From positions 2,335,630-2,399,629 of the forward strand of contig AP023240.1 of NCBI GenBank assembly GCA_016592635.1: a DNA stretch of 64,000 bases, written 5' to 3'. This DNA is from Methyloprofundus sp. (GTDB lineage: Bacteria; Pseudomonadota; Gammaproteobacteria; Methylococcales; Methylomonadaceae). Position numbers and translations under genes: made by a program. Positions 10,479 to 41,212 of this stretch are shown piece after piece (the first letter of the stretch is position 1; every line of letters begins with the position of its first letter). The notes below the pieces were generated by a model. The model was not told where the DNA came from. It ran no database searches and worked only from the letters and a program-made list of their open reading frames with translations.

Positions 10479-10552
10479 TGAATAAGGCTGTATTTTGTAG
10501 TATAATAAACAGCGCTAACAAATTGATTATACAAACAAAAAAGCCTTATTCA
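10479..10552 (+). promoter_or_regulatory. Inverted repeat masking the transposase start (IS copy 1)
   Basis: TGAATAAGGCT (10479-10489) pairs perfectly with AGCCTTATTCA (10542-10552); the final A is the first base of the transposase ATG. A TATAAT at 10501-10506 lies in the loop. A transcript entering from outside would fold and bury the start, while one started from the inner -10 would lack the left arm. The same arrangement occurs at 39802-39875 in copy 2. Confidence 0.6.
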
Positions 10553-11889
10553 TGTTCATTTTACGCGATCTTCTTTCTCCTCTTCAATCACATTTTTCAG
10601 AAACCACGCTCGGCAAAGAAAGAGCCTCGTTATTTGCCTATACGCTACTGTCGATCATTGTCCCGTTTACTTCCTCCATTAGTTCCAATTTATGGCGTAG
10701 CCTTGAAACGCTGTTCGGTATCAATATCAAGCGGAAACGATTTTACACATTCATGGCATCAACCAAATTACCGTGGCAAGGTTTATGGAAAACAGCCTGG
10801 GACCTGATCGACAACCCTGAAACGGACGACCGATTATTAATTGCCCTGGATGATTTCATCAACCCTAAAGTGGGCAAAAAAATCTTTGGTTGCGAAACCA
10901 TTTATGATCATGCGGCCAAAGCCAATCAAAGCGACTACCCATGGGCACAAAACGTGGTAGCCATCGGTTTGCTCAAGCAAATAAAAAATCGTTGGGCCTG
11001 TTTGTTTTTAGATTTTCGCCACTACCTTCCACAGAAAGCGATTGATGCACAATCCGATCGAGCGAAGATCAAAGGTCGATTGCAGTCGTTTGAAACCAAG
11101 ATCGGCCAAGCTGCACAGATGATCATCGGGGTTGCAAATCATTTTTCCGGCAAGCAAATACTCGCGGTGACCGATAGTTGGTTTGGCAATGCAGGTTTGT
11201 TAAAGCCCGTACGCAAAGAGGTAGGCAGTCTGTTTGATATTCTGTCGCGCCTGCGCTGTAATAGTGTTTTATATGATCTTCCCGAGACAAGACAATCTGG
11301 GCAGCGAGGGAGACCTCGAAAATATGGCCAGCGCTTGGGTTCGGCAACAGAAATGGCAAAATGCATTCGTCACGAAGCCGCCGAATATCAGGTGACTCTT
11401 TATGGCAAACAGCGTACGGTACTTGCCCATGAACGCATTGTCATGCTGAAAAGTTTAAAATGCAAAGTACGCGTCGTGTGGGTTTTTCGTAAAACGCAAT
11501 GGATCGCACTGTTTAGCACGGACTTGTCATTATCGGTCACGCAAATGATCGAGTTTTATGGTGCGAGATGGAAAATCGAATCAGGATTCAAGGAGTTGAA
11601 ACAAGACATCGGCAGTCAAAAAAGTCAGTGTCGTAATGCGCATTCCGTGACCAATCATTTGAATTTTTGTATGATGGCAAGTACGCTGACCTGGATTTAT
11701 GCCGACCGTTTAAAGGCGGATCCGGAGCGTCGGCACAAAGTAAAAGGGCGCGCCAGTTTTGCCTTTTCAGACGTGCGGCGCATCATTACCGAGGCAGCAT
11801 TGAACCCGGATTTTAATCATGTTTGCCCCAAACCAAGCAACTCCCCGATAAATCCACTGATTGCCGTACTGTTACGCATGGTGGCTTGA
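10552..11889 (+). CDS. IS4-type DDE transposase, copy 1
   Basis: 445 residues. The catalytic acidic residues fit a DDE enzyme: Asp100 or Asp101 in LLIALDDFINPK, Asp208 in AVTDSWFGN, and Glu343 in the Y-(2)-R-(3)-E-(6)-K signature YGARWKIESGFKELK. This YREK pattern defines the IS4 superfamily. The C-terminal RGRASFAFSDVRRII segment is basic. No obvious ribosome-binding site precedes the ATG, which fits low translation. The product cuts and joins the ends of its own element. The subgroup within IS4 (or IS701-like) cannot be set without a database. Confidence 0.93.
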   Translation: MFILRDLLSPLQSHFSETTLGKERASLFAYTLLSIIVPFTSSISSNLWRSLETLFGINIKRKRFYTFMASTKLPWQGLWKTAWDLIDNPETDDRLLIALDDFINPKVGKKIFGCETIYDHAAKANQSDYPWAQNVVAIGLLKQIKNRWACLFLDFRHYLPQKAIDAQSDRAKIKGRLQSFETKIGQAAQMIIGVANHFSGKQILAVTDSWFGNAGLLKPVRKEVGSLFDILSRLRCNSVLYDLPETRQSGQRGRPRKYGQRLGSATEMAKCIRHEAAEYQVTLYGKQRTVLAHERIVMLKSLKCKVRVVWVFRKTQWIALFSTDLSLSVTQMIEFYGARWKIESGFKELKQDIGSQKSQCRNAHSVTNHLNFCMMASTLTWIYADRLKADPERRHKVKGRASFAFSDVRRIITEAALNPDFNHVCPKPSNSPINPLIAVLLRMVA

Positions 11890-12563: not shown

Positions 12564-13427
12564 CTACAATGAGACTTTCACACTCACCCCTAACTGACGA
12601 ACACACTCTGCAAACGCCTCCAATTGTTGCATATTTGCACTCATAATATCTTTTGCTTCAGGCTGTAAAGATGGCCTAGCCAGACTATATAACATTACCC
12701 CCTGCAAAGAAACTCCTGTGATAATAGTACGCAAAAACTCCAAATAGGCAGCTTGCTCTTGTTCTTCAAGCAAGCCATAAACTTCACCATCACCTACATA
12801 TTTCAATACACAAGTCTGTAGCCAAGTACTGCAAAGTTTAGCTGACATCAGTAGGTTCTCTCTCTGTTTTTGCGTACTGATAGCTGTGTGGTTAACATTA
12901 ACCCGCCCCTGCTCGGTAACACTGTCCACTTTAAACCACACTTGCCCTTTATATTGATTAAATAATCGCAAACCTGCTTGTACATCTGCTTTATGCAGCA
13001 AGCTACCATTGGTTATCAACACGTATTGAAAGGGATCTGGGATGCCTGCCCGCTCAATTTGCTCTGTAATCGCGGCAATTGCTTGAGCAAAACCTTTAAC
13101 ACTAGTGGGTTCGCCATTGCCTGAAATGGCAATATCTTTAATCACTCGCATTTTTGGCTCTAACTGAAAGCGCTCATAAAAAGTGCCATGCAATACATCC
13201 TGTAAAAACTCAGCCAACTCTTGAGCTAATAATTCAAAATTTAATTCAGGCGCTGTGCCAATACTTAAATCAGGGACTTGGCAGTAAACACAACCCCAAT
13301 TACAGGCATTATTGGTATTAAAATTAATACCAATCGACAAGCCACCAGAACGCCTGGAGATAACGGGATAGACATACTGATAGCCAGCAACATCACGATC
13401 ATGATTTTTTACACTAAGTTTGAACAT
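12564..13427 (-). CDS. Radical SAM protein next to fae
   Basis: 287 residues with the canonical CX3CX2C [4Fe-4S]/SAM motif at Cys42, Cys46 and Cys49 (CNWGCVYC), preceded by GGLSIGINFNTNNA. A GNGEPTS stretch is the SAM-contacting region seen in this superfamily. It is divergent from the fae paralog, with only 77 bases between the two starts, and both sit next to the H4MPT cluster. A link to pterin or C1 metabolism is an inference from position; the reaction is unknown. It lacks the extra C-terminal cysteine cluster of SPASM proteins. Confidence 0.8.
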   Translation of the reverse strand: MFKLSVKNHDRDVAGYQYVYPVISRRSGGLSIGINFNTNNACNWGCVYCQVPDLSIGTAPELNFELLAQELAEFLQDVLHGTFYERFQLEPKMRVIKDIAISGNGEPTSVKGFAQAIAAITEQIERAGIPDPFQYVLITNGSLLHKADVQAGLRLFNQYKGQVWFKVDSVTEQGRVNVNHTAISTQKQRENLLMSAKLCSTWLQTCVLKYVGDGEVYGLLEEQEQAAYLEFLRTIITGVSLQGVMLYSLARPSLQPEAKDIMSANMQQLEAFAECVRQLGVSVKVSL

Positions 13428-13504
13428 GAAACTAAAAATATTCTTAAAAAAATGTTATTCTACTGGGTTATCCCATTATTCATTTAACTTTTTTGGAGAA
13501 AATT

Positions 13505-14053
13505 ATGAGCGATAGAATCGTCATGCGTACAGGTGAAGCATTGGTTGCAGGTGGTCCAGCTGGAACAGCAGCAGAGCCTGAGATTGTAATTGGTGAGCTA
13601 GATGGCCCTGTTGGAACAGCATTAGCTACTTTAACTGGCGACCAAGCTAAAGGTCACTCTAAAGTGTTTGCTATTCTAAACACTGACATTCAAGTACGTC
13701 CTGTTACTCTAATGGTGAGCAAAGTAACCGTTACTAACAGTCGTTACACAAACATCCTTATGGGGACTGTACAGGCTGCGATTGCTAATGGCGTATTAGA
13801 TGCTGTTCGTGCAGGCGATATTCCTAAAGAAAAAGCAAATGACTTAGGTATTATTTGTTCAGTTTGGTTAAACCCAAGTGTTGCTACAGATGATAACTTA
13901 GATCATCAAATTCTTTTTGATATTCACCGTAAAGCGACTGCTCTAGCAATCCATAAAGCGATGACTAATACACCTGATATTGATTGGTTGTTAGAAAATC
14001 AAGATAAAATCACCCATAAATACTTCCAAATGGGTTTAGACGGTAAAATCTAA
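13505..14053 (+). CDS. Formaldehyde-activating enzyme paralog lacking the catalytic His
   Basis: 182 residues from the ATG at 13505, with GGAGA 6 bases upstream; the in-frame TTG at 13493 lies in the ribosome site itself. It aligns over its length with Fae: TGEALVAGG at the start, RPVTLMVSKVTV in place of [12 protein letters not shown], and the conserved core continues to residue 150. In true Fae the segment NEVAHIDL supplies the acid-base His; here the region reads AAEPEIVIGEL with no His. It is therefore probably not a standard formaldehyde:H4MPT condensing enzyme. It could bind a pterin or formaldehyde for sensing, or act on another carbonyl. The downstream strong terminator gives it its own transcript. 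Confidence 0.85.
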   Translation: MSDRIVMRTGEALVAGGPAGTAAEPEIVIGELDGPVGTALATLTGDQAKGHSKVFAILNTDIQVRPVTLMVSKVTVTNSRYTNILMGTVQAAIANGVLDAVRAGDIPKEKANDLGIICSVWLNPSVATDDNLDHQILFDIHRKATALAIHKAMTNTPDIDWLLENQDKITHKYFQMGLDGKI

Positions 14054-14109
14054 TACCCTATTGCACATGCAATCTAAAATGATTGCCATGCGCTAAGTAT
14101 TGCCAAAAT

Positions 14110-14149
14110 AAAAAAGCCTCCATACAAATATTTGCATGGAGGCTTTTTT
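14110..14149. terminator. Bidirectional intrinsic terminator
   Basis: Long GC-centred hairpin (arms GCCTCCATACAAA / TTTGCATGGAGGC) flanked by A6 on the left and T6 on the right. It serves the fae paralog (+) and the GNAT gene (-), which converge here. Confidence 0.9.
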
Positions 14150-14168
14150 ATGTCGGTTACTTGAACAA

Positions 14169-14666
14169 TCATACATCAGCCTTACTTTCAAAAAACTTGG
14201 AAAAGACAATCCAATCAAAATTTCCATAATGATTCTTTAATACAGCTTCACCTGAATAACCTAAGCCAGAATAAAACTTAATCAGCTCTGCAGCAAGCAA
14301 CCCGGTCTCCAAATATATTTTATGTGCCTGCAAAACAGCCAGCCCTTCAACCTTACGCACTAATTGCTGCCCTATACCTTGTTGCTGATACATGGGGTCA
14401 ACAGATAATCTTTCAAATACACAAACGCCTAAATTAATTTGATACCTAACTGAGCCGACAATTTTGCCACCTCGACTGGCAACAAGAATTGATTTACGCT
14501 TAAAATCTATTTGCACTTCGGCAAGGGATTCATTTAGTGGTGGAATTTGCTCCGCTGCTATCAAATTAGTGTACACCTCGAATGCATTCATTTGAATTTC
14601 AAGAATTGCTTGCAGATCAGAGCTATCGGCCGCCCTTATAATTAATTCTTTATCACCAGTACTCAT
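14169..14666 (-). CDS. GNAT-family N-acetyltransferase
   Basis: 165 residues with a complete GNAT fold: the N-terminal IIRAADSSDLQAIL strand-helix, IVGSVRYQ strand 4, and motif A VDPMYQQQGIGQQLV, the pyrophosphate loop (Q/R-x-x-G-x-G/A) for acetyl-CoA, at about residues 98-112. The C-terminal FYSGLGYSG is also typical. Transfers acetyl groups to an amine; the substrate is unknown. It is isolated between two terminators, downstream of fae in the same direction. Confidence 0.85.
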   Translation of the reverse strand: MSTGDKELIIRAADSSDLQAILEIQMNAFEVYTNLIAAEQIPPLNESLAEVQIDFKRKSILVASRGGKIVGSVRYQINLGVCVFERLSVDPMYQQQGIGQQLVRKVEGLAVLQAHKIYLETGLLAAELIKFYSGLGYSGEAVLKNHYGNFDWIVFSKFFESKADV

Positions 14667-14752: not shown

Positions 14753-15268
14753 TTAAACTTTGTTTGCAGCAAATGGATGCTCAGAAGTTGACTTTTGAGC
14801 AACAACTTCAGCTGCAGTAGGTGTACCAGCTACAGCGTTTTTGATAGATGCTTTAACAGCATCGTAGTTGTTTTTCTCAATAGCAGCATCATCTTCAGCT
14901 AACCAGTGAATGAAAACACCTACAGAGATGAATATATCATCAGCTTCATCAGCTGGGATAGTTCCATCTTCAACACAATCAGCAACAGCCATTGCAACAC
15001 CACGTTGTGCAGGACCGAACATTTGAACTGCTTGCTTAGAACCTTTGATAGTTACTTTGTTGAACATAACAGTTGCAGGCTTAACCATAAGGTTAGGAGC
15101 AACAACAGCTAATAAGCTTGAGAAACCGTCTTTGTTGTTTGTTAAGCAGTTTGCGAAAGCAGACTCAGCAGCAGAACCACGAGGCCCCATCATTAAGTCA
15201 ATGTGTGCAACTTCGTTTCCGTCGCCGTTTAAAGATTCACCAACGCGTAAGTTGTTAATTTTAGCCAT
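14753..15268 (-). CDS. fae: Formaldehyde-activating enzyme
   Basis: 171 residues from the ATG at 15268, the size of known Fae. It condenses formaldehyde with tetrahydromethanopterin in the cytoplasm, the first step of the H4MPT oxidation pathway. The catalytic His is present (His22 in [12 protein letters not shown]), followed by [12 protein letters not shown], and [21 protein letters not shown] and VGVFIHW are near-invariant in the family. It follows the orf7- and orf5-like genes, the M. extorquens order. An in-frame ATG at 15319 with a good AGAGGA ribosome site would add 17 residues ([17 protein letters not shown]); the shorter start fits the family better, but both may be used. Confidence 0.96.
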
Positions 15269-15312
15269 GCTACTATTACCCTCTGAAAAAAAAGAAAAAA
15301 CTTTATCTAGAA

Positions 15313-15326
15313 TTGACATTTGTCAA
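15313..15326. promoter_or_regulatory. Small palindrome at the upstream fae start
   Basis: TTGACATTTGTCAA, 6-bp arms around TT, overlaps the alternative ATG at 15319. It could be an operator or an RNA element; the evidence is only its symmetry and place. Confidence 0.25.
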
Positions 15327-15379: not shown

Positions 15380-16234
15380 TTATCCATGTGCAAGTAATTG
15401 TTCTAACTGTACTGCTAAAACCGTTACCACCGTAAAATCAGCTGCTGTCCCTGGATTAATCCCAGCAGACTTGAACTCGCTATCTATTTTGCGTAAATAG
15501 CTTTCCATCTGTTCAGGTCTATCTGTTTGAGATAACTTATCGTCAACCAAAGCCATCTTATCCATCACCGTCTTGGTGTGAAGATTGCCATATTTTCGTT
15601 CGATATGACTGTCAGGATATGTTGCCAACATAGCTGCATAAACAGCAACTGCTGACCACTCCGCATCACCCCACCGATTGAAGGCAACATTATACCTTAA
15701 AACCAAAAAATCAAAAATATCTTTGTAATTTGTTGTGAACTGCAACGCAATTCTATCGCGATCAGCTGCCAATTGCATTGCTTGAGTCAGTGTCACATCT
15801 GGCTTTTCAGCAACATCTTGTTCTTCTGCCTTACCTAAGCCACCAGGCGCAGCTAATGCGATTGCACGAAAAACCCAATCAGAATCGGTGATAGTTGTAT
15901 TAGCTAAAACAATGGCCAACTCCGCTTGCAAATCATTTTTAGAAGCCGCCTTTTCAGCTGCCATTAACAACGGTGCACACAACAAAATAATGCCTAAATT
16001 AGTATTACAACCAACAGCTACACGCGTTGCTTTTACAGCATAATAAATGCGCTCGCCTAAACCATATTCTCTATTCGTTATCGGTTTTACACTTTGTTCA
16101 GCACTAACACGAAAATCCTGTACCGTCATATCATGACCATCAGCATAAATACTGACATTACCAGGCTTAAAGGCACGCAATTCTATTTCACATGCGTACT
16201 CATAAGTCTCCATTAATTGCTGTTGCGTTAACAT
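15380..16234 (-). CDS. CitG/MdcB-like protein of the H4MPT cluster (orf7 type)
   Basis: 284 residues related to triphosphoribosyl-dephospho-CoA synthases: ELRAFKPGNVSIYADGHDM is the N-terminal PGN motif and CNTNLGIILLCAPL the central glycine-rich helix. In methylotrophs this subfamily (orf7 in M. extorquens) lies between orf5 and fae and mutants are impaired in H4MPT formation; the exact reaction is not established. Its start overlaps the end of the ATP-grasp gene by 7 bases, a sign of translational coupling. Because citrate lyase and malonate decarboxylase genes are absent, a role in H4MPT synthesis is the better reading than CoA prosthetic group synthesis. Confidence 0.85.
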   Translation of the reverse strand: MLTQQQLMETYEYACEIELRAFKPGNVSIYADGHDMTVQDFRVSAEQSVKPITNREYGLGERIYYAVKATRVAVGCNTNLGIILLCAPLLMAAEKAASKNDLQAELAIVLANTTITDSDWVFRAIALAAPGGLGKAEEQDVAEKPDVTLTQAMQLAADRDRIALQFTTNYKDIFDFLVLRYNVAFNRWGDAEWSAVAVYAAMLATYPDSHIERKYGNLHTKTVMDKMALVDDKLSQTDRPEQMESYLRKIDSEFKSAGINPGTAADFTVVTVLAVQLEQLLAHG

Positions 16235-17139
16235 ACTTTCTCTATTTGTTTAGGCTGTACACAAAGTGCCAGCAAATCATCCACTAAAATACTTGCTACC
16301 TGTACATTACAGACACTTTCCAAACCTTTCCATGCCGGAATGCTATTGACTTCAATAATTTGATAGCCACCTTCAGGCGTACAAATAATATCCACACCAG
16401 CATAGTTCATTTGCAAAGCAGCTGTTGCTTTAATGGCCATTTCTGCCATAGCATCCGTTATCGGCAAGGCTTCACATTTTGCGCCTCTGGCAACATTATT
16501 TAACCAGTGCACACCGCGGCGACGCATGGAGGCTATCGCTTTACCATTCACCACAAAAACCCGCCAATCTGAATAGCCTTCACCCTCACAATCAACAAAG
16601 CGTTGTAAATAATAAATACCCTGACTATGCGCCAACCAAAATAAATCGCTTAACTTTTCAATTCGGCGAATGCCTTCCCCTTGCGAACCAAAAATAGGTT
16701 TACTGATTAATTGGTGCCCTAAACGCAGCTGTTGCTCGGCTATTTCTAATGCTTTAGTACGATCCCTTAACACCCACGTAGCAGGAGTCGGCAAATTGTG
16801 CTGCTGTAATAGAAAACTGGTCATGCTTTTATCAACACTACGCTCAATGGCATGCCCGTCATTATAAACAGGGATACCCATTATTTTCAGCGCATGTAAT
16901 ATATCTAAATAGTGCACTACCTCTGTTAGAGAACCACCTGGCACCCCTCGTACAAATACCGCATCGGGTAGAGTTTGCTCAAAACCAGGGATGCTTATCG
17001 GCAACATACCCTCCTGAATTGCCATCCGGCATTCTGTTAATGATACATATTCAGCTAAATATCCCCGTGCAGCAAAAGCAAGGCGTAATTGCTTACCATG
17101 CCAACCAGGATCATCAGTAAAAATCGCTATTCGTCCCAC
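16228..17139 (-). CDS. ATP-grasp (RimK-like) ligase of the H4MPT cluster (orf5 type)
   Basis: 303 residues starting at GTG. ATP-grasp features include ISKPIFGSQGEGI (the ATP-binding Lys and glycine-rich loop, about residues 145-157), the RFVDCEG strand, and the C-terminal metal site EVNSIPAWKG with NYAGVDII before it. RimK-like enzymes ligate glutamate or another amino acid to an acceptor carboxylate. The orf5 homolog in M. extorquens is needed for H4MPT synthesis and may add a glutamate-like side chain, which is inference. First gene of a unit with the CitG-like gene and probably fae. It diverges from ubiG across a 189-base gap. Confidence 0.85.
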   Translation of the reverse strand: MGRIAIFTDDPGWHGKQLRLAFAARGYLAEYVSLTECRMAIQEGMLPISIPGFEQTLPDAVFVRGVPGGSLTEVVHYLDILHALKIMGIPVYNDGHAIERSVDKSMTSFLLQQHNLPTPATWVLRDRTKALEIAEQQLRLGHQLISKPIFGSQGEGIRRIEKLSDLFWLAHSQGIYYLQRFVDCEGEGYSDWRVFVVNGKAIASMRRRGVHWLNNVARGAKCEALPITDAMAEMAIKATAALQMNYAGVDIICTPEGGYQIIEVNSIPAWKGLESVCNVQVASILVDDLLALCVQPKQIEKVC

Positions 17140-39801: not shown

Positions 39802-39875
39802 TGAATAAGGCTGTATTTTGTAGTATAATAAACAGTGCTAACAAATTGATTATACAAACAAAAAAGCCTTATTCA
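39802..39875 (+). promoter_or_regulatory. Inverted repeat masking the transposase start (IS copy 2)
   Basis: Arms at 39802-39812 and 39865-39875, identical to those of copy 1. Transcription of the upstream signalling genes would read through this copy, so the protection would matter here. Confidence 0.6.
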
Positions 39876-41212
39876 TGTTCATTTTACGCGATCTTCTTTC
39901 TCCTCTTCAATCACATTTTTCAGAAACCACGCTCGGCAAAGAAAGAGCCTCGTTATTTGCCTATACGCTACTGTCGATCATTGTCCCGTTTACTTCCTCC
40001 ATTAGTTCCAATTTATGGCGTAGCCTTGAAACGCTGTTCGGTATCAATATCAAGCGGAAACGATTTTACACATTCATGGCATCAACCAAATTACCGTGGC
40101 AAGGTTTATGGAAAACAGCCTGGGACCTGATCGACAACCCTGAAACGGACGACCGATTATTAATTGCCCTGGATGATTTCATCAACCCTAAAGTGGGCAA
40201 AAAAATCTTTGGTTGCGAAACCATTTATGATCATGCGGCCAAAGCCAATCAAAGCGACTACCCATGGGCACAAAACGTGGTAGCCATCGGTTTGCTCAAG
40301 CAAATAAAAAATCGTTGGGCCTGTTTGTTTTTAGATTTTCGCCACTACCTTCCACAGAAAGCGATTGATGCACAATCCGATCGAGCGAAGATCAAAGGTC
40401 GATTGCAGTCGTTTGAAACCAAGATCGGCCAAGCTGCACAGATGATCATCGGGGTTGCAAATCATTTTTCTGGCAAGCAAATACTCGCGGTGACCGATAG
40501 TTGGTTTGGCAATGCAGGTTTGTTAAAGCCCGTACGCAAAGAGGTAGGCAGTCTGTTTGATATTCTGTCGCGCCTGCGCTGTAATAGTGTTTTATATGAT
40601 CTTCCCGAGACAAGACAATCTGGGCAGCGAGGGAGACCTCGAAAATATGGCCAGCGCTTGGGTTCGGCAACAGAAATGGCAAAATGCATTCGTCACGAAG
40701 CCGCCGAATATCAGGTGACTCTTTATGGCAAACAGCGTACGGTACTTGCCCATGAACGCATTGTCATGCTGAAAAGTTTAAAATGCAAAGTACGCGTCGT
40801 GTGGGTTTTTCGTAAAACGCAATGGATCGCACTGTTTAGCACGGACTTGTCATTATCGGTCACGCAAATGATCGAGTTTTATGGTGCGAGATGGAAAATC
40901 GAATCAGGATTCAAGGAGTTGAAACAAGACATCGGCAGTCAAAAAAGTCAGTGTCGTAATGCGCATTCCGTGACCAATCATTTGAATTTTTGTATGATGG
41001 CAAGTACGCTGACCTGGATTTATGCCGACCGTTTAAAGGCGGATCCGGAGCGTCGGCACAAAGTAAAAGGGCGCGCCAGTTTTGCCTTTTCAGACGTGCG
41101 GCGCATCATTACCGAGGCAGCATTGAACCCGGATTTTAATCATGTTTGCCCCAAACCAAGCAACTCCCCGATAAATCCACTGATTGCCGTACTGTTACGC
41201 ATGGTGGCTTGA
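39875..41212 (+). CDS. IS4-type DDE transposase, copy 2
   Basis: Identical in protein sequence to copy 1 (445 residues); the only coding difference noticed, T40471, is silent. All three catalytic acidic residues are kept, so the element is probably active. It is transcribed in the same direction as the kinase operon. Confidence 0.93.
   Translation: MFILRDLLSPLQSHFSETTLGKERASLFAYTLLSIIVPFTSSISSNLWRSLETLFGINIKRKRFYTFMASTKLPWQGLWKTAWDLIDNPETDDRLLIALDDFINPKVGKKIFGCETIYDHAAKANQSDYPWAQNVVAIGLLKQIKNRWACLFLDFRHYLPQKAIDAQSDRAKIKGRLQSFETKIGQAAQMIIGVANHFSGKQILAVTDSWFGNAGLLKPVRKEVGSLFDILSRLRCNSVLYDLPETRQSGQRGRPRKYGQRLGSATEMAKCIRHEAAEYQVTLYGKQRTVLAHERIVMLKSLKCKVRVVWVFRKTQWIALFSTDLSLSVTQMIEFYGARWKIESGFKELKQDIGSQKSQCRNAHSVTNHLNFCMMASTLTWIYADRLKADPERRHKVKGRASFAFSDVRRIITEAALNPDFNHVCPKPSNSPINPLIAVLLRMVA

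Follow-up and report, generated by a model that had tools for sequence, protein, structure and literature searches.

The window analysed here (64,000 nucleotides of Methyloprofundus sp., contig AP023240.1) contains a gene, fae3, whose product, judged by its sequence, is almost certainly a homologue of the formaldehyde-activating enzyme (Fae) of the Fae3 type, i.e. a member of a histidine-less sister clade of Fae that has kept the fold and a part of the pterin site. The explanation we prefer overall, with a rough probability of 45%, is that this homologue acts as a C1-pterin-binding accessory protein. In methylotrophs and methanotrophs formaldehyde enters its main oxidation route through Fae. 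A sister protein that is devoid of the catalytic histidine, is more conserved than Fae itself and co-occurs with the H4MPT pathway suggests that this formaldehyde node includes a step or a control that has not been described.

The family is known and a homologue of the Fae3 type is not a novelty. Fae homologues have been divided into five groups with functions given only for groups 1 and 5 (PMC11748545), and those of unknown function (groups 2–4, Fae2/Fae3) were already described together with mutants and complementation (PMC11748545, PMC5023235). Methylotuvimicrobium fae3 did not rescue the Δfae1 mutant of strain AM1, the Δfae3 mutant grew normally and the fae3 transcript of strain 20Z amounted to about one quarter of that of fae1; the active-site histidine is not discussed there (PMC11748545). 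Fae3 of Methyloversatilis universalis FAM5, a distant Fae homologue bearing the same name, is dispensable for growth as well (Δfae3 grows normally), and its gene is up-regulated 11.7-fold on methylamine (PMC5023235). Fae3 of Methylotuvimicrobium alcaliphilum 20Z (MEALZ_RS07105) is probably the orthologue of the window gene. The two were equated by position via genome G092 with exactly three Fae genes at 0.93, 1.65 and 2.78 Mb, which corresponds to the order of RS04100, RS07105 and RS11875; the gene at 1.65 Mb belongs to group A as defined below, is 93% identical to the window Fae3 and, like the window gene, adjoins the radical SAM gene. This makes Fae3 the probable name of the window gene.

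Locus and transcription signals

The features of the locus are collected in the table. The ATG of fae3 at 13505 is preceded by GGAG, its stop codon occupies 14051–14053, and the Pfam Fae domain of the product scores 199.7 bits against a gathering score of 27. The layout agrees with what had been described from the letters alone: fae3 and the radical SAM gene are read in diverging directions from starts that lie 77 nt apart (13428–13504), and canonical fae is close by. The latter is convergent with fae3 (699 nt from stop to stop, about 1.2 kb apart). These two are the only Fae-family genes in the Methyloprofundus sp. genome. Next to canonical fae, at higher positions of the window, lie putative orf7 and orf5; in Methyloversatilis FAM5 Fae1, Orf7 and Orf5 carry consecutive locus tags.

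Features of the fae3 locus (positions within the window)
Feature	Position	Strand	Basis
Radical SAM gene (CxxxCxxC)	12564..13427	-	PF04055, 4.7e-6
TGTTATTCTA, extended -10-like putative promoter core, 52 nt before ATG	13453..13462	+	conserved in orthologues
fae3 (group A, His-less Fae homologue, 182 aa)	13505..14053	+	ORF; PF08714, E 3.8e-59; model; orthologues
Codons Glu24-Pro25-Glu26, replacing His-Ile-Asp of canonical Fae	13574..13582	+	alignment
Hairpin with T-tract 3' of fae3, intrinsic-terminator-like in both directions	14108..14151	+	-27.5 kcal/mol, z -7.1
GNAT acetyltransferase, between fae3 and fae	14169..14666	-	profile match
Canonical fae with NEVAHIDL	14753..15319	-	TIGR03126, 234.9 bits (cut-off 118)
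CitG-like gene (putative orf7, H4MPT-linked formaldehyde oxidation)	15380..16234	-	PF01874, 4.4e-65
MptN-like ATP-grasp ligase (putative orf5)	16228..17139	-	NF040720, 3.4e-63, below cut-off; RimK family above cut-off

Nearly all fae3 genes that adjoin the radical SAM gene, and several without this neighbour, are preceded by the element TGnTATTCT; upstream of canonical fae it was not found. In the window elements of this type were observed three times with 0.7 expected. The conserved TGnTATTCTA element on the 5' side together with the T-tract hairpin on the 3' side suggests that fae3 forms a single-gene transcription unit. Two IS701-family transposase genes of the window (10552–11889 and 39875–41212) are identical in all 445 amino acids, and the element near the fae3 locus is a recently active one.

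Active site and phylogeny of the Fae groups

Canonical Fae (5,6,7,8-tetrahydromethanopterin hydro-lyase from M. extorquens, 1Y5Y/1Y60) and Fae3 have the same fold, the PF08714 domain, Lys71 and Gln88 in common but share only 25–27% identity (26% with the canonical Fae of the same genome). An AlphaFold model of Fae3 (pLDDT 93) fits 1Y60 with TM values of 0.86–0.93 and an rmsd of 1.7. The stretch GTAAEPEIVIG of Fae3 aligns onto the canonical NEVAHIDL region, and there His22 is replaced by Glu24 (codon 13574–13576) and Asp24 by Glu26; further differences are Phe for Leu53, E-L-D-G for PRGS and VWLNP for VFIHW. Besides the histidine we take Asp24, Leu53, Lys71, Thr73 and Gln88 to be the residues of 1Y5Y in contact with the substrate. 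Lys71 and Gln88 (Lys73 and Gln90 in Fae3) are invariant across the four Fae groups, and at the position of Thr73 canonical Fae and group B have Thr, group A either Thr or Ser. Among the other histidines of Fae3, His171 is common to canonical Fae, His51 is also found in groups B and C and in the canonical Fae of planctomycetes, and His134 is confined to group A in the alignment.

The four groups differ in their motif at the active site. Canonical sequences show His/(Ile or Val)/Asp with the histidine in 21 of 21 cases (AH[IV]D), whereas Glu/Pro/Glu is found in 100% of the 111 group-A sequences (AEPE or SEPE). As the glutamate at the histidine position is fixed in all 111, this replacement in fae3 is not due to chance. 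Window Fae3 carries the marks of group A, namely the AEPE motif, glutamates at both the His and the Asp24 position, and Phe at Leu53. Group C has retained the histidine (AHIN or SHIN). Group B contains Fae2-type proteins such as fae2 (pMaq22A_1p) of Methylobacterium aquaticum 22A; it is a sister clade, also His-less and with the same Glu at Asp24 and Phe at Leu53, but it differs from Fae3 by the AMPE motif with Met at the His position (11 of 11) and shows 39–50% identity. The Δfae2 mutant of strain 22A grows more slowly on methanol (PMC7356819). In a quick tree, to be read with a long-branch warning, groups A and B are united in a single long-stemmed clade apart from canonical Fae (SH-aLRT 98) and each of them is monophyletic (SH-aLRT 97 for both). 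That the gene codes for a paralogue with the Fae fold but lacking the catalytic His had been correctly recognised from the letters.

The NCBIfam "equivalog" model of Fae (TIGR03126) accepts the window protein narrowly (123.1 versus the cut-off of 118) and rejects the methylobacterial orthologue (L053:8001–8546; 106.4). Annotation as Fae is therefore unsafe for the group-A clade, and this NCBI model labels Fae3 as formaldehyde-activating enzyme despite the lost acid residue and the failed complementation by its probable orthologue.

Distribution, selection and gene neighbourhood

Group A occurs in 126 of 301 genomes of Methylococcales and beyond this order in Methylobacterium, Methylocella, Ancylobacter, Aurantimonas, Fulvimarina, Ectothiorhodospiraceae and many Planctomycetota, where the copies are 76–97% identical to the Methylobacterium copy. 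Two group-A copies are present in two Methylococcales genomes (G123, G146) and in Methylobacterium brachythecii (L081, L088). A Fae-family match was obtained in all 28 group-A genomes tested, one MAG showing the group-A copy only, and Mch in 27 of them, the exception having no Mch in its assembly. Group A therefore belongs with the H4MPT pathway. In a phylum-wide draw of 398 genomes Mch was found in all nine carriers of canonical Fae that were examined, most of which have A or B in addition; the group-A- or group-B-bearing genomes checked there all have it, and none of the four genomes whose only Fae is of group C does. These group-C proteins (L156–L159 in G492, G648, G650 and G472) are His-bearing Fae apparently without an H4MPT pathway.

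Very strong purifying selection acts on group A: within one genus its dN/dS (ω) is about 0.015, that of the radical SAM gene 0.10. In matched genome pairs across different groups group A shows 82% identity and canonical Fae 67%; between Methylococcales and Planctomycetota the values are 87% and 58%. By these identities group A is more conserved between phyla than canonical Fae, which is a new observation, but horizontal transfer may have a share in this excess. The unusually strong conservation suggests that Fae3 contacts protein partners besides its ligand. A functional gene linked with C1 and pterin metabolism, as the original prediction had it, agrees well with the low ω and with the co-occurrence of Fae-family proteins and Mch.

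The radical SAM gene, noted in the same prediction as the neighbour, does not define fae3. It is present in 211 of 228 good Methylococcales genomes with or without fae3, is missing from 26 of 27 genomes tested outside this order, most of them fae3-bearing, and adjoins fae3 in 46 of the 79 genomes with both genes placed; as an obligate partner of fae3 it is ruled out by this distribution. The commonest recognisable context of the radical SAM gene is the fhc operon (fhcBADC): fhc genes lie beside it in 21 of 48 neighbourhoods, often with the gene directly 3' of fhcC, and in four of these (L212, L221, L044, L131) fae3 separates the radical SAM gene from fhcC, lying on the opposite strand. The association of fae3 with the radical SAM gene is therefore best understood as fae3 belonging to the formaldehyde-oxidation neighbourhood of fhc. 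The radical SAM gene has no PDB relative and no NCBIfam equivalog and is a candidate for cofactor chemistry of the methylofuran/H4MPT pathway. The position directly 3' of fhcC is seen, e.g., in L051, L052, L213 and L235–L240. Outside Methylococcales no neighbours of fae3 conserved across orders were found in a search that was repeated on all frames (the gene caller picks antisense ORFs in GC-rich genomes).

Possible functions of Fae3

In its more specific form the preferred reading, held somewhat more tentatively than the general one, places Fae3 in the H4MPT-linked formaldehyde pathway as an accessory protein whose Fae cleft would bind a tetrahydropterin, either free or loaded with C1. With glutamates replacing both the catalytic acid His and the adjacent Asp it would not perform the bulk condensation of formaldehyde with H4MPT but could hold, report or pass on a C1-pterin intermediate, and a cationic ligand (methylene-iminium or methenyl) would go well with the two acidic side chains. 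An accessory role in this pathway is argued for by the fold, the fixed Glu/Glu pair and the retained Lys71 and Gln88, the link to H4MPT by the co-occurrence with Fae-family proteins and Mch and by several genomes in which fae3 is placed between fhcC and the radical SAM gene. It is about an even chance that group A as a whole represents a separate functional class on the Fae fold, namely a hyper-conserved C1-tetrahydropterin binder (regulator, carrier or Glu-Glu C1-transfer catalyst) in H4MPT users of at least two phyla, which would be a candidate for a role in H4MPT-linked methylotrophy with a function not described before.

Since Glu can serve as general acid, an altered enzyme has to be considered too, with Glu24 as new general acid/base that would either join formaldehyde to another carrier such as H4F or act in reverse by formaldehyde release or C1 transfer between H4F and H4MPT. 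We regard this as possible though less likely than a binding function. Fae homologues were already proposed for the H4F pathway (PMC11748545, PMC6277846), and in FAM5, where fae3 responds to methylamine, methylamine oxidation is predicted to yield methylene-H4F (PMC5023235). Five Methylobacterium/Methylorubrum loci (L053, L059, L077, L088, L096) show the gene order mgsABC-gmaS-fae3, one of them on the conjugative plasmid pLVM1. However, GmaS was detected at E≤1e-90 in none of the 301 Methylococcales genomes, a set that contains no positive control, and methylamine (N-methylglutamate pathway) is thereby ruled out as the general reason for fae3. Moreover, the linkage of group A is tight to H4MPT genomes and not to the universal H4F, and the mutants show no phenotype.

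A condition-specific true isoenzyme catalysing the Fae reaction with Glu as acid is improbable. The retained Lys and Gln of the site and the narrow pass of the equivalog cut-off speak for it, but the methylobacterial orthologue does not reach that cut-off and a long, well-supported branch sets the clade apart. The missing rescue of Δfae1 by the probable orthologue and the normal growth of Δfae3 mutants (PMC11748545, PMC5023235) argue against a bulk Fae, so that the suspicion that the gene does not code for Fae appears plausible, even if the failed complementation by Methylotuvimicrobium fae3 could be due to poor expression. Still more improbable is a dedicated two-gene system with Fae3 as substrate and the radical SAM enzyme as its modifier: the divergent pair recurs in about 12 genera, but the occurrence of the radical SAM gene without fae3, frequently beside fhcC, and its absence outside Methylococcales, where fae3 is common, largely refute it. 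That fae3 is a decaying, non-functional copy is practically negligible; the loss of the catalytic His and the missing phenotype after deletion of the probable orthologue (PMC11748545) would fit, but the gene is no relic in view of ω and of the identity between groups, which exceeds that of canonical Fae, and it has its own promoter-like element and terminator as well as, in 20Z, a transcript at about one quarter of the fae1 level (PMC11748545).

On a plasmid of Azospirillum oryzae (L054, 4236–6522) a group-B fae is located 38 bp 3' of a gene for a methyl-accepting chemotaxis protein, a position that fits the old suggestion that Fae homologues take part in sensing.
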